DNA of 55,642 nucleotides from Candidatus Aegiribacteria sp. (GTDB lineage Bacteria; Fermentibacterota; Fermentibacteria; Fermentibacterales; JCC-6). This document shows, piece after piece, positions 44,829 through 51,365 of this stretch. The notes under the pieces were generated by a model. The model saw only the letters and a program-made list of their open reading frames with translations, was not told the origin of the DNA and ran no database searches. Position 1 is the first letter of the stretch; each line of letters begins with the position of its first letter. The position numbers and the translations under genes are program-made. The stretch covers positions 1-55,642 of the forward strand of contig JAIORS010000134.1 in the NCBI GenBank assembly GCA_021108005.1, written 5' to 3'.

Positions 44829-45437
44829 ATGACTGAAAGAAGCGACATATCCGTTCTGGTTGTCGAGGATGATCATCTTGTATCCGAGATGGTGAAAGGT
44901 ATGCTAAAAGAGCTTGGATACAGTATAGCTGGAGAAGCTGAAGACGGGCACGAGGCTGTTGAGATGGTGAGATTGTTACATCCTGACGTAGTAGTCATGG
45001 ATATCAGAATGCCAAGAATGAACGGGATTGAAGCTGCCATTCTGATTCAGAAGCACTTCCCGACTCCGGTTGTTATACTGAGCGCGTACGAAACGGAAGA
45101 CCTTACAGATAAAGCTATCGAGGCAGGAGTAGGCGCGTACGTTGTGAAACCACCGAAAGCACTTGAACTGATGAGGGCAATTGAAGTATCTCTTGCGCGA
45201 TTCAGCGATATGGCCAAATTAAGAGAACAGAGTAACAAGCTGCAGGAGGCTCTGAGAAGAGTAAAGCAACTTACCGGAATACTCCCAATCTGCAGGAACT
45301 GTAAAAGGATCAAGGATGAGGAAGGAGAATGGCATACTCTGGAAGACTACATACAAAAACACTCAGAAGCAGAGTTCAGTCGCGAATTATGTCCGGTATG
45401 CAGAAAAAAATTGTATCCTGAATCCAATTCAGAGTAG
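44829..45437 (+). CDS. Response regulator with C-terminal zinc-ribbon-like domain
   Basis: A 202-residue regulator. The receiver domain spans about 5-125, with acidic pair in VVEDDHL, phospho-acceptor Asp in VVVMDIRMPRMNG and the conserved Lys in VVKPPKAL. A helix follows (about 128-155), then a Cys-rich module: CRNC at the start and CPVC near the end, inside ILPICRNCKRI and YIQKHSEAEFSRELCPVCRK. This module recurs at the C-terminus of many bacterial kinases and regulators and likely binds zinc; its role is unclear. AAAGGA precedes the ATG. Cognate partner is very probably the kinase 12 bases upstream. Its 3' end overlaps the convergent ferredoxin gene by 9 bases. Confidence 0.92.
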   Translation: MTERSDISVLVVEDDHLVSEMVKGMLKELGYSIAGEAEDGHEAVEMVRLLHPDVVVMDIRMPRMNGIEAAILIQKHFPTPVVILSAYETEDLTDKAIEAGVGAYVVKPPKALELMRAIEVSLARFSDMAKLREQSNKLQEALRRVKQLTGILPICRNCKRIKDEEGEWHTLEDYIQKHSEAEFSRELCPVCRKKLYPESNSE

Positions 45438-45935
45438 TAGAAAGCCGGTAAGAATCTGGAATTCATTGCTGCCAACCCGAATACGGTAGTTTCCGGAAGC
45501 TAAATCGGATAGATCAATCAGGGCTTCTCCGTCAGACGAAACAGTAGTCGATAACACAAGCCTTCCGTAGACATCAAATACCTCCACCTGATTGCCGACA
45601 GTTGCTCCTGTCAGGAGAACAAGCCCTGAGGAGGGGTTTGGCCCGAATAACAGTTGTTCTTCGGTTTCATCCCCCGATAGTCCTTCGTACCAGTATTTGT
45701 AAATCGCTCCGCGTATACAGTGGGGAGCGCAATTACCACACCCATTACAAAGGTCAGGGTCAATCACCGCATCAGGACCATCCATATAAAGGGCACCTGT
45801 CGTGCAATACGGAATGCAATTACCGCACCCGTTGCATATCAGTGGATCAACCTGGTATATCCATATTATTGCATACGTTAAAGGTACCAGTGTGAATAAA
45901 ATCGCTGCAGTAATCCATCTACTCCTGAAAAACAC
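45429..45935 (-). CDS. Exported or membrane-anchored two-[4Fe-4S] ferredoxin fused to a C-terminal sorting domain
   Basis: A protein of about 168 residues from the preferred start. It begins with basic residues and a hydrophobic segment (WITAAILFTLVPLTYAIIWI). Then come two ferredoxin motifs of the exact pattern CxxCxxCxxxC, CNGCGNCIPYC and CNGCGNCAPHC, eight cysteines for two [4Fe-4S] clusters. The C-terminal 80 residues are a sorting domain: FGPNPSSGLVLL, VEVFDVYGRLVLST and SGNYRIRVGSN. I prefer the GTG at 45935, which has AGAGGA upstream, to the ATG at 45971, which has no site. A bacterial ferredoxin with both an export signal and a sorting domain is very unusual. Confidence 0.8.
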   Translation of the reverse strand: MFFRSRWITAAILFTLVPLTYAIIWIYQVDPLICNGCGNCIPYCTTGALYMDGPDAVIDPDLCNGCGNCAPHCIRGAIYKYWYEGLSGDETEEQLLFGPNPSSGLVLLTGATVGNQVEVFDVYGRLVLSTTVSSDGEALIDLSDLASGNYRIRVGSNEFQILTGFLLL

Positions 45936-46192
45936 TGAGATACATCCTCTCTGGATTTCAGCCGTGATCATCGCGACAGTAATTGAAATATTAGCATGTT
46001 ACTTATCCAGATTAAAATATACTCCAAGGCATGGTGATTGAGCAATATCACCGTCACGTTTGATCATGCAACAGCAAACCTGTTCGACTTCATATGGTTT
46101 GCCGGATTATGCCTCTATGTTTTGGGATATAAGTGAGACTATATTTCATCAGTAGGAACTAAACTATTTTCTTTTGCTTCTGGAGGAATCAG

Positions 46193-47881
46193 GTGTTTTT
46201 AAGCAATTGTAACGGAACAATGATACTGGTAACGATTCTAGCTGTGTTCACTGTTTCTGCCTTCGGGGAGGAGCCTGCTTTCAGCCATGAGATTCAGCTC
46301 CCATCCCTTGAAGAAATGGGTCCCATCGACCGTGTGACAGATTCTGAAGTTCGCCTCACTCCCCCACCAAATCCGCAGGTCGGAGATTCGTGGATCTGGT
46401 ACCTTTTCACATGGGAGTCTATGCCGCCCCACTTCATACAGGACACGTGCGTGGTTCGCGGGAAGAGCGACCGTGGCTATGTAATGGTCAGAGACTGTGA
46501 ATGGAATGTAACAATAAATCAGGCTGATGTGGACTCCATCCTTGAGCACTGGGAAAACTCCAGTATCGGCCCCTATCCCAACCGGGGCATTTATGAAATT
46601 GACAGCCTCTCTTTCGGGGTTCCTCCGGACGAACTTGATAACGATCCACGTATTTACCTTATGTGGTACAACTTCCATGTAGCTGCAGACGGCTTCTTTT
46701 TCTACTTCGATGAGTATCCCGATGGCACATTTCCCGGTTATCCAAGCAACGAATGTGAGGTTCTCTACCTCAATACCGCAAGCTCGGGAGGCCCTTCCGG
46801 AGATTATATGCTCGCGGTAGCAGCGCATGAGTTCGAGCACTTGATCCACTGGAAATACGATGATGATGAAAGCACATGGGTTGATGAGGGTATGGCCGAA
46901 CTCGCAATGTGGTTTTACGGACACCCTGACGTAATCACATCGTTCAACAACCACCCCGACAACAACCTGACGGTGTGGGACGGTAACTGGGCCGATTACA
47001 TTCAGACCTATCTCTGGTCACTCTACTTCTTTGAGCGTTACGGCGGACATCCTGCTGTTTTCGCGCTGGTGCATGAGCCTGCCAATTCCATGGCCGGTTA
47101 CGATAACGTCCTTGATGATTTCGGCTATTCTGAGAACACCGATGATATTTTTATTGACTGGTCAGTTGCCAATTTCCTGGATGACACCAGTCTCGTAGAT
47201 GGAAGGTACGGTTATATCGGTGATGATCTTCCCCCATTTTACGCAAAAACATATTCATCGTATCCTGTGGCTGCCAATGGGACAGTAAATAACTGGGCGA
47301 CAGACTACTACCGTTTTGAAGTTATCTCTATCGAGAATCTCACGCTTACTTTTGACGGTTCCGATAGCAACAAATTCGGTGTTCGGGTGTTGTTTCTTCG
47401 TCCAGACTCCATCGTGGTTCTTCCGATGACTCTTGATGAGCCAACACAAAGCGGATCACTTGAAATAAACAACCTAACCAATCCCCTCGACCAGATTGTT
47501 CTTGTTATAGCCAGTGTTTCAAGTTCCGGTGGCCCTGATTATCAGTTCACCGCATATGATCCTCTTGGAATTTCTATTGATCCATCACAACTCACAACAA
47601 ATATCGATCTCATCCTTACTCCGAACCCATTCAGCAGCGTTGTTGATATTCAGTTGAACTGGAACGGTACTATCGCGGCTGCAAATCCGACGATCGATAT
47701 TTACGATCTGCAGGGGAGAATCGTTCAGAGGCTCACAGCTGATGTTCTTTCAGATGGAGAGGCATCGGTTCAGTGGAACGGAGACATTCAGGCCGGTACT
47801 CACGCTAATGCGGGCATCTACTACGCCCGTGCCAGAGTGGGCTCTGCTCAGTGTGTGGCAAAACTGTTACTGCTCCCGTAA
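46193..47881 (+). CDS. Secreted zinc metalloprotease with sorting domain
   Basis: A 562-residue exported protein. The signal peptide is followed by a propeptide-like region, then a zincin domain with H212-E213-F-E-H216 (VAAHEFEHLIHW) and a second Glu in WVDEGMAEL, E232, the expected third ligand or support residue. This is the pattern of M30/M6-like neutral metallopeptidases. After a beta-rich region (about 360-480) comes an FCB-type sorting domain, LTPNPFSSVVDIQL then IDIYDLQGRIVQRL and GIYYARARVG. The start is a GTG at 46193 with a strong GGAGGA upstream. A perfect hairpin lies after the stop. It is likely a surface-attached or released protease. Confidence 0.88.
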   Translation: MFLSNCNGTMILVTILAVFTVSAFGEEPAFSHEIQLPSLEEMGPIDRVTDSEVRLTPPPNPQVGDSWIWYLFTWESMPPHFIQDTCVVRGKSDRGYVMVRDCEWNVTINQADVDSILEHWENSSIGPYPNRGIYEIDSLSFGVPPDELDNDPRIYLMWYNFHVAADGFFFYFDEYPDGTFPGYPSNECEVLYLNTASSGGPSGDYMLAVAAHEFEHLIHWKYDDDESTWVDEGMAELAMWFYGHPDVITSFNNHPDNNLTVWDGNWADYIQTYLWSLYFFERYGGHPAVFALVHEPANSMAGYDNVLDDFGYSENTDDIFIDWSVANFLDDTSLVDGRYGYIGDDLPPFYAKTYSSYPVAANGTVNNWATDYYRFEVISIENLTLTFDGSDSNKFGVRVLFLRPDSIVVLPMTLDEPTQSGSLEINNLTNPLDQIVLVIASVSSSGGPDYQFTAYDPLGISIDPSQLTTNIDLILTPNPFSSVVDIQLNWNGTIAAANPTIDIYDLQGRIVQRLTADVLSDGEASVQWNGDIQAGTHANAGIYYARARVGSAQCVAKLLLLP

Positions 47882-48778: not shown

Positions 48779-49040
48779 CTTTCACTCCTTTTTTGTTTAA
48801 TGGATCGTAACGAACCCTGTCAAAAGGCTTATTTCTTTATAATACTACTATACTAAATCGTATCCGTTTCTGCATCTTTTTTATCAACAGAATAATTGTA
48901 ATACTATTTAGAACCTTTACCGTCAATGAATGATGCTAATAAAACAGCCTGTTGAACAGGGTAATTGCTATGAAGAATCCGGAAATACTGGATTGATTAT
49001 CAGAAACCACTTCACCATTATCAGACAAGGAGACCATACT

Positions 49041-51365
49041 TTGAAAAATGTAGCATTGAATACAAGTCGATGGAGTAGATGTACTTCGTCCGGAGTCCTT
49101 CTGCAGATGTTTGTTCTTCTTGCAGTGACATCGATAGCCGCTGCCTATTCAGGGAGTCTGGTGGTAAGTCTCCATTCCGGAGAGTATGAAATAGTTCAAA
49201 ATCTCGATGGTCACAGAATAGAGATGGAAGGCTTCAGCCAGCTGATGACCCCCGGAAAGCCCATGCTTCCCATGAAACGATTCCAGATTCTGCTTCCCCC
49301 GGGCGCCAGAGCGGTATCTGTGGACGTGATCGGTTCCGGTGCAGATGAATTACCCTCTTATTACGACATTCAGCCATTCGAGGGAGTTCTCCCTCTTCTC
49401 AACACACCGTATCTGGAAGAAGAGCTTGTCAGGCTTGATGAAGAGTGGCATGCAAACCACGAAATCGTTTACCTCAGTGACCAACCGTATCCTGACAGGA
49501 TCGCCTGGCTATCCGGAGCAGGCACCCTTCGCAAATACTCTTATGCATCGATAGCTTTCTGCCCGATCACCTATCATCCGATTTCCCGGCGGCTTATTTA
49601 CCATGATCGTGTTGATGTAGCCATTAACTACACGCTGCCTGACGAGGGAGATGCCGAGGCGGAGCATATAGAGCGACTCCTTGCAGACTGCGTTGCCGAT
49701 GAAAGGGCAGAGCGGCTTTTTATCAACTACCGGACATTCGCCGGACAATACACTTCCAGCAGAATTGAGGCGCAATTTGACGATCTGTACGATTACGTTA
49801 TCGTAACCACCAGCGACCTGATCGGCTCTGTTACATCATCCGCTTTTCCCGCATGGAAGGCGGAACTCGGGTACAGTCTGAAAACCGTTCTTACAACCGA
49901 CCCTTTGATAGCTGATCAGCCGGGTGTGGATCTGGAGGAGCAGATAAGGAACTTCCTCAGGGAGTACTACGGGCTATGGGGAATTGAATATGTACTCTTT
50001 GTAGGTGACTATGCCACAGTCCCGATGCGTATATGCTATCCTGACTCGTCTTTTCACGTATATGATCCGTCCAATCCAAATCTTTTCGCGCCAGGTACGC
50101 CCACCGACCAGTACTACACAGACTTGTCCTATCCTGATTCGCTGTCCTGGGATCTGGACGGAGATGGATTTGTCGGTGAGTACAACCAGGATCTTCCCGA
50201 CTTTCTTCCGGAGATCTATGTTGGAAGGATTCCGGTGAATGACACCGGTCGTATTACGTACACCCTTAATAAAACCGTTACTTTTGAGCAGGATGCCGGG
50301 AGCTGGAAAAAGAATGTTCTCCATCCGACCACCATTCTGTTTTTTGAGAATCAGAATTTCAGCGGATATCCGTTTATTGACGGAGCTTCTGTGATAGACT
50401 CCATCGAAACCGGTCTTATGGACGGCTGGAATATCACACACATGAGTGAACAGTTTGGTATCGTGACATCTCTGTTCGATTGGCCAGCTGTGAGTGAGGG
50501 TGTATTTATCAATCATTGGCGCAACGGCCAGTTTGCGGTGGTCAACTGGTCAGGACATGGCTGGTCTAACAGTGTCTCTCGGTCGGTTTGGGAATGGGAT
50601 GACGGTGATGGTGTTCCCGAATCGAGTAATGGAGAGTTTTATAACCTCTCGTTGCTTAACACTGTTACTTCAACCAATCTGGATGATGATTATCCTTCGG
50701 TTGTATTTGCGATCTCGTGCAATGTGGGTTATCCTGAACCAAACGCATGGGGGAACCTGGGCATTGACCTTGCAACTAAACCGGGGTCTGGCTCAGCGGT
50801 AGGCATGGTGAGCGCTTCGAGACCTTCGGCTATCTCGTCAGACTGGAAAAATAACCCCGGCGGAGCGGAGCAGATATGCTTCGATTTCAACCGTTACCTT
50901 ATAAGTGAAGGCGAGCATGTGGGAGTTGCCCTGTACGACGGCAAGTACGATGCTACGACCGTTTACGGCTGGTCACATATCTACGAGTACGGGAATCTAT
51001 ACAATGTCAACCTTTTTGGTGATCCATCTCTGGAGGTTGCAGGCTACCCGACCGGTATTGAGGGGGGGGAAACAGCTCCGGGAATGATGCCCCCTTCTCT
51101 TTTCCCTGCATATCCCAATCCGTTCACGTCATCGACAGCATTACGTCTTACCCTGCCGACTTCAAGCAAGGTGCTTGCTGTGGTTTACGATATAAGCGGC
51201 AGGCAGGTTGCATCGCTTATGGAAGAAATGCGTCCCGCCGGAGAGCTGCTGCTCTTCTGGGATGGCAGAGACAACTCCGGAGAATCGCTTGGGCAGGGTA
51301 TCTATTTTGCAGTTATCACAGTTGGTAATCATCAGGCAGTTCGGAGAATGATGCTGTTAAGGTGA
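49041..51365 (+). CDS. Gingipain-like C25 peptidase with propeptide and sorting domain
   Basis: A protein of 774 residues from the chosen TTG at 49041, which has AAGGAG eight bases upstream and gives a clean signal peptide (LLQMFVLLAVTSIAAA). A propeptide of the C25 type follows (PGKPMLPMKRFQILLPPGA). The catalytic domain has His506 in NWSGHGWSN and Cys560 in VFAISCNVGY, the C25 dyad. The C-terminal 85 residues are a sorting domain: PAYPNPFTSSTALRL, then VVYDISGRQVASL and GIYFAVITVG. In Bacteroidetes, C25 enzymes are Arg/Lys proteases (gingipains) or the PorU sortase. Since this one carries its own sorting tail, I favour a cargo protease. Specificity is not predictable. Confidence 0.9.
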   Translation: MKNVALNTSRWSRCTSSGVLLQMFVLLAVTSIAAAYSGSLVVSLHSGEYEIVQNLDGHRIEMEGFSQLMTPGKPMLPMKRFQILLPPGARAVSVDVIGSGADELPSYYDIQPFEGVLPLLNTPYLEEELVRLDEEWHANHEIVYLSDQPYPDRIAWLSGAGTLRKYSYASIAFCPITYHPISRRLIYHDRVDVAINYTLPDEGDAEAEHIERLLADCVADERAERLFINYRTFAGQYTSSRIEAQFDDLYDYVIVTTSDLIGSVTSSAFPAWKAELGYSLKTVLTTDPLIADQPGVDLEEQIRNFLREYYGLWGIEYVLFVGDYATVPMRICYPDSSFHVYDPSNPNLFAPGTPTDQYYTDLSYPDSLSWDLDGDGFVGEYNQDLPDFLPEIYVGRIPVNDTGRITYTLNKTVTFEQDAGSWKKNVLHPTTILFFENQNFSGYPFIDGASVIDSIETGLMDGWNITHMSEQFGIVTSLFDWPAVSEGVFINHWRNGQFAVVNWSGHGWSNSVSRSVWEWDDGDGVPESSNGEFYNLSLLNTVTSTNLDDDYPSVVFAISCNVGYPEPNAWGNLGIDLATKPGSGSAVGMVSASRPSAISSDWKNNPGGAEQICFDFNRYLISEGEHVGVALYDGKYDATTVYGWSHIYEYGNLYNVNLFGDPSLEVAGYPTGIEGGETAPGMMPPSLFPAYPNPFTSSTALRLTLPTSSKVLAVVYDISGRQVASLMEEMRPAGELLLFWDGRDNSGESLGQGIYFAVITVGNHQAVRRMMLLR

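Follow-up and report, generated by a model that had tools for sequence, protein, structure and literature searches.

The Gene and Its Surroundings

The window is the whole 55,642-nucleotide stretch analysed here, which comes from a Fermentibacterota genome. The protein of interest has 168 residues and joins three parts: a hydrophobic N-terminal segment, a ferredoxin domain with two four-cysteine motifs and a predicted C-terminal sorting domain of the type IX secretion system (T9SS). The coordinates of the parts are collected in Table 1. The frame is a real gene with a good ribosome-binding site, and it lies at exactly the position and on the strand first assigned to it. Its GTG start at 45935 is preceded by 'agagagga', and the start position and a GGAG-type site are shared with close relatives. 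An alternative longer ATG frame reaches 45971, but the GTG is favoured by the strong ribosome-binding site and by those relatives.

Table 1. Features of the ferredoxin gene in the window, and the operon of exported ferredoxins elsewhere in the same genome.
Feature	Location	Strand	Basis
Whole gene: N-segment, 2[4Fe-4S] ferredoxin and T9SS type A tail, 168 aa	45429..45935	-	
Hydrophobic N-terminal export segment, residues 1-24, MFFRSRWITAAILFTLVPLTYAII, without a twin-arginine motif	45864..45935	-	
Ferredoxin domain, residues 25-83, 8 Cys in two CxxCxxCxxxC motifs	45687..45863	-	Pfam Fer4, Fer4_7
Short linker, residues 84-96, GIEE-type in many relatives	45648..45686	-	Alignment
C-terminal T9SS type A sorting domain, residues 97-168, and stop codon	45429..45647	-	PF18962, TIGR04183, predicted fold
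Ribosome-binding region aatccagagaggatgtatctca, upstream of the GTG start	45936..45957	-	
Operon: four exported ferredoxins, barrel-like protein and DsbD_2 membrane protein	Own genome, contig C228, L103:7827-12005		

The first-pass annotation had proposed two [4Fe-4S] motifs and a type IX-like sorting domain, and curated profiles uphold both. Against the window protein Pfam Fer4 scores 45.1 bits (cut-off 21.1, E 6.7e-12) and Fer4_7 scores 32.5 bits (cut-off 27). Over the tail, PF18962 (Por_Secre_tail) scores 33.4 bits (cut-off 27) and NCBIfam TIGR04183, the T9SS type A sorting domain, 32.9 bits (cut-off 23). PDB sequence matches include clostridial-type 2[4Fe-4S] ferredoxins and the ferredoxin domain of periplasmic [FeFe] hydrogenase. 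The window protein has the same eight-cysteine double motif and spacing as these, but it differs from them in carrying a Sec-like N-segment and a T9SS tail. Classical ferredoxins are cytoplasmic, and the periplasmic [FeFe] hydrogenase is a Tat substrate via its small subunit.

The convergent neighbour (44829-45437, plus strand) encodes a response regulator with a C-terminal CxxC...CxxC tail, and the two genes have 9 bases in common. Relatives of the window ferredoxin have LIK at the C-terminus whereas it has GFLLL, and its final residues are therefore recent. Also beside the ferredoxin gene are a gingipain-like C25 peptidase and a putative HExxH metalloprotease (48930-51365 and 46193-47881, respectively, plus strand), both with T9SS/FlgD-type tails.

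Distribution and Conservation of the Family

The search sample comprised 385 genomes, of which 42 belong to Fermentibacterota, an anaerobic and little-known phylum, and 343 lie outside the phylum, spread across the domain. Homologues with the same architecture were looked for, as the first-pass annotation had suggested, and the complete three-part protein, its sorting domain retained, is encoded in 27 of the 42 Fermentibacterota genomes. The T9SS-tailed ferredoxin is dispensable, since 15 of the 42 genomes are without it, some of these being incomplete.

In an alignment of the 27 members, identity to the window protein is 37-67%. The invariant residues are W25, all eight cysteines, I58-D59-P60 and A77-I78, together with P101, G124, G136, G148 and Y150 in the tail. 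The core GA..A.IDP..C.GCG..C and the full 2[4Fe-4S] pattern with its spacing occur in 27/27. Mean pairwise identity is highest in the ferredoxin core (66%), lower in the tail (39%) and lowest in the N-segment (28%). When tails are compared singly with PF18962, only 17 of the 27 reach E 0.001.

The first-pass annotation had itself raised the doubt that the fusion is an assembly artefact. Some footing for that doubt comes from the source, a metagenome-assembled genome of 231 contigs, but 27 separate genomes carry the same fusion. An artefact is ruled out because the fusion is seen in so many independent assemblies, and we give it, or a chance fusion, negligible probability.

Full-length relatives were absent from the 343 genomes outside the phylum, among which Bacteroidota may be under-covered, and only matches to the Fer4 part appeared there. 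Some of those inspected are HdrA-like or other cytoplasmic-type proteins. A phage origin was considered and rejected, the single phage record matching the Fer4 part only. By these comparisons, the fusion is genuine and old and, within the sample, restricted to the phylum. Two genomes outside the phylum, G331 (L092:2314-2955) and G044 (L093:2203-2823), encode apparently exported proteins that combine four Fer4 motifs with a Sec-like N-terminus but have no T9SS tail. In G044 the next gene encodes a DsbD_2 membrane protein, like the Fermentibacterota operon described below. Judging from such proteins, the occurrence of exported ferredoxins may extend beyond a single phylum.

Among genomes whose sequence extends far enough, most have a methyltransferase gene that overlaps the ferredoxin gene or lies immediately before it. 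This cluster has 16 members, and the methyltransferase is called TrmH/SpoU-type from its sequence rather than from a profile search. Its overlap with the ferredoxin start (L051-L076) makes translational coupling probable, with no evident functional reason. In the window clade the ferredoxin gene is in another location, near a 270-aa exported protein. Neither setting offers a redox partner by gene neighbourhood.

The Probable Export Segment

The N-segments of all 27 members are hydrophobic, and in nearly all of them basic residues stand in front of the hydrophobic run. Acidic residues follow the run, a pattern of N-in/C-out character. The twin-arginine motif (S/T)RRx(F/L/V) occurs in none of the 27 N-segments, and a bare RR occurs in one. 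Tat export was rejected on this ground, although TatC is encoded in 36 of the 42 Fermentibacterota genomes, and this agrees with the Sec or T9SS export considered in the first-pass annotation. Export of the T9SS-tailed ferredoxin is likely, to judge from these features.

The same annotation had called the N-terminus a membrane/export segment. Its hydrophobicity and orientation hold up, while an anchor and a cleaved signal both remain candidates. Signal-peptidase sites were judged by the (-3,-1) rule. The segment terminates in acceptable signal-peptidase I sites (ASA, AIA, VLA) in the window genus and in others. In the large genus g3 it is 14-16 residues long, mostly with a poor site containing proline. 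The main rival to surface display starts from here: the N-segment would stay uncleaved, leaving a periplasmic ferredoxin anchored at the outer face of the inner membrane, with its tail serving for docking instead of secretion. Such a protein would carry electrons between inner-membrane complexes, either Rnf or a NapH/NosR-like protein, and periplasmic partners. It would suit this reading that the ferredoxin domain begins directly after the hydrophobic segment and that g3 N-segments such as MFKIVAVLFLLLAPLR have no good signal-peptidase I site. However, the g3 hydrophobic run is only about 12 residues, which is short for a membrane anchor; the window genus and others do have acceptable sites; and a conserved T9SS tail would be pointless on an inner-membrane anchor. 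We regard the anchored form as unlikely.

The Type IX System and the Tail

Several parts of the type IX system are encoded in these genomes. SprA_N is found in 38 of the 42 Fermentibacterota genomes, and the PorV family is above cut-off in 42/42. PorU-like proteins are likewise present in 42/42, with the strict cut-off exceeded in 10; the best one in the genome of the window scores 409 bits against that cut-off of 420. There a PorV gene (C221:17552-18445) comes after a PorU-like one (C221:14276-17350), and the same genome has SprA and about 105 places matching Por_Secre_tail. The host thus encodes the translocon and shuttle that the proposed T9SS route would use.

An AlphaFold model made from a four-sequence alignment is poor overall (pLDDT 62), with a weak ferredoxin part, and only its tail is useful. 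The strands from residue 94 to 164 are arranged as a sandwich, for which Foldseek gives the C-terminal domain (CTD) of RgpB as the best match, with 5hfs, the mirolase CTD, SprA-bound NucA and RemA CTDs also among the matches; the E-values of about 1e-3 to 1e-2 make these matches supportive only. From profiles and predicted fold, we conclude that the tail is a T9SS-type sorting domain.

A protein that is cytoplasmic, or membrane-bound and facing the cytoplasm, with an incidental tail match, would agree with the location of most [4Fe-4S] ferredoxins and with the moderate tail score of 33 bits. We consider it very improbable, given the N-in/C-out charge pattern around the hydrophobic segment and a tail that is conserved family-wide, passes two curated cut-offs and has T9SS CTDs as the nearest neighbours of its predicted fold.

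Known T9SS cargo consists mainly of proteases, adhesins and glycoside hydrolases. The likeness to Bacteroidota type A cargo such as the gingipain RgpB lies in the TIGR04183-grade tail and in the SprA, PorV and PorU-like proteins of the genome. The window protein differs from that cargo in being a putative iron–sulfur protein and far smaller than usual.

An Unlinked Operon of Four Exported Ferredoxins

Outside the window, the same genome has four ferredoxin genes in a row, followed by genes for two further proteins, one exported and barrel-like and the other a DsbD_2-type membrane protein. The first and last of the ferredoxins are lipoproteins, of 273 aa with three four-Cys motifs and of 82 aa, respectively; between them come two Sec-type proteins, one of 164 aa and a minimal ferredoxin of 77 aa whose signal peptide is clean. 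Signal peptides and lipoboxes were assessed by eye. The gene order is kept in the 20 phylum genomes inspected (relatives' loci L104-L122), save for contig ends and missed or merged gene calls. Among the best 30 places for Fer4 genes in the genome of the window, only these four and the window gene resemble exported small ferredoxins. A tree of the ferredoxin core makes each exported type its own old, phylum-wide group, in an order that 53 columns cannot resolve.

The barrel-like protein, exported and of about 400 aa, is found in 36 of the 42 phylum genomes and in 0/343 outside. It reaches 19.5 bits with an autotransporter profile, below the cut-off of 26, and is barrel-like by sequence. In the genome of the window its gene is split into two frames (L103:9577-10784), which reflects either misassembly or a genuinely broken gene; relatives have intact copies. 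In 11 loci a NapH/NosR-like membrane Fer4_5 protein is encoded close to the operon (in the own genome L103:15665-17290, minus strand); the exported N-terminal part of this protein contains repeated CPLG...DxNxDxxCDNP motifs.

The window-type gene lies apart from the operon and shows no association in co-occurrence with the barrel operon or SprA (24/27 vs 12/15, p 0.65). The operon may be a more important find than the window protein.

A Proposed Surface Electron Carrier

The cytochrome c assembly family PF01578 (CcmF/CcsA type) was absent from all 42 Fermentibacterota genomes in a search in which positive controls were matched. By this measure, Fermentibacterota appear unable to make c-type cytochromes. 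A published member of the phylum, Sabulitectum silens, is described as an obligate fermenter without a respiratory chain that nevertheless transcribes rnf (PMC5763382). Since PF01578 is absent, the exported ferredoxins become candidates for the role that multihaem cytochromes play elsewhere.

One difficulty with any such role is the cluster. According to the standard rule, iron–sulfur cofactors enter their proteins in the cytoplasm, and export must then go through Tat (PMC10924467). A Sec-exported ferredoxin is for that reason without a known source of clusters, and cluster loading into a Sec-exported protein is beyond what known machinery explains. An alternative is a T9SS surface protein whose cysteines carry no electrons and instead bind iron or other metals, or sulfide or polysulfide, or form disulfides, for metal or sulfur handling or redox sensing. 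The sulfidic habitats would fit this too. However, the full 2[4Fe-4S] pattern, spacing and core are kept throughout the family, and the double motif is retained in all rows tested of the four other exported ferredoxin types. Exporting ferredoxins is habitual in the phylum, a lineage without PF01578, which makes electron transfer likelier than metal handling. We rate metal or sulfur handling as improbable.

We favour, with moderate confidence, a surface electron carrier that is exported by Sec and then by T9SS and works within a ferredoxin-based extracytoplasmic electron system. The first-pass annotation had likewise suggested a surface-exposed electron carrier. The non-Tat segment, the T9SS tail with its host parts and the retention of that tail in homologues support this, while the surface position, the clusters and the electron transfer are what we infer. 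The apo-ferredoxin would be made and would cross the inner membrane via Sec by its hydrophobic N-segment, and the C-terminal domain would then hand it to the type IX system (SprA/PorV) for display on the cell surface. The eight cysteines would acquire their two [4Fe-4S] clusters after export, in anoxic and often sulfide-rich habitats, with the thiols kept reduced outside, for which the DsbD_2 protein is a candidate. The product would be a small protein that passes electrons to a partner outside the cell or takes them from it, the surface member of five exported ferredoxins replacing multihaem cytochromes in their job.

Any link between the window gene and the unlinked operon is conjectural. 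A more specific proposal, which we hold only tentatively and think somewhat doubtful, is that the barrel and the four ferredoxins make up a 'porin-ferredoxin' conduit across the outer membrane, with the DsbD-like partner reducing thiols and the window ferredoxin at the outer end, in place of c-type cytochromes. The porin-cytochrome conduits (MtrCAB, DmsEF) are alike in having exported carriers, some lipid-anchored, and a barrel-like protein. The operon differs from them in that its carriers are 2[4Fe-4S] ferredoxins (Fer4) rather than multihaem cytochromes and in the addition of the DsbD_2 protein, and its function is putative. If it is truly a conduit, it would be categorically new.

The nearest working analogue is DmsB of Shewanella oneidensis, a [4Fe-4S] ferredoxin-type subunit that serves electron transfer beyond the outer membrane. 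This extracellular subunit of DMSO reductase is exported by type II secretion within DmsAB and is fed by decahaem cytochromes (PMC9048795). The window protein, by comparison, is a lone ferredoxin with a Sec/T9SS route, in a host without the cytochrome c assembly family. The single domains are known, as ferredoxin and as T9SS cargo, and their combination is not found in the literature searched, which gave no report of a secreted ferredoxin or of iron–sulfur T9SS cargo.

The usual explanation for iron–sulfur proteins found outside the bacterial cytoplasm is cluster insertion in the cytoplasm and subsequent Tat export. If the favoured reading is true, the five Sec-like exported ferredoxins would mean that [4Fe-4S] clusters can routinely be built or kept beyond the inner membrane. 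It would also suggest a means of electron exchange with minerals, sulfur species or syntrophic partners for a phylum whose described metabolism is obligately fermentative and which apparently lacks c-type cytochromes.
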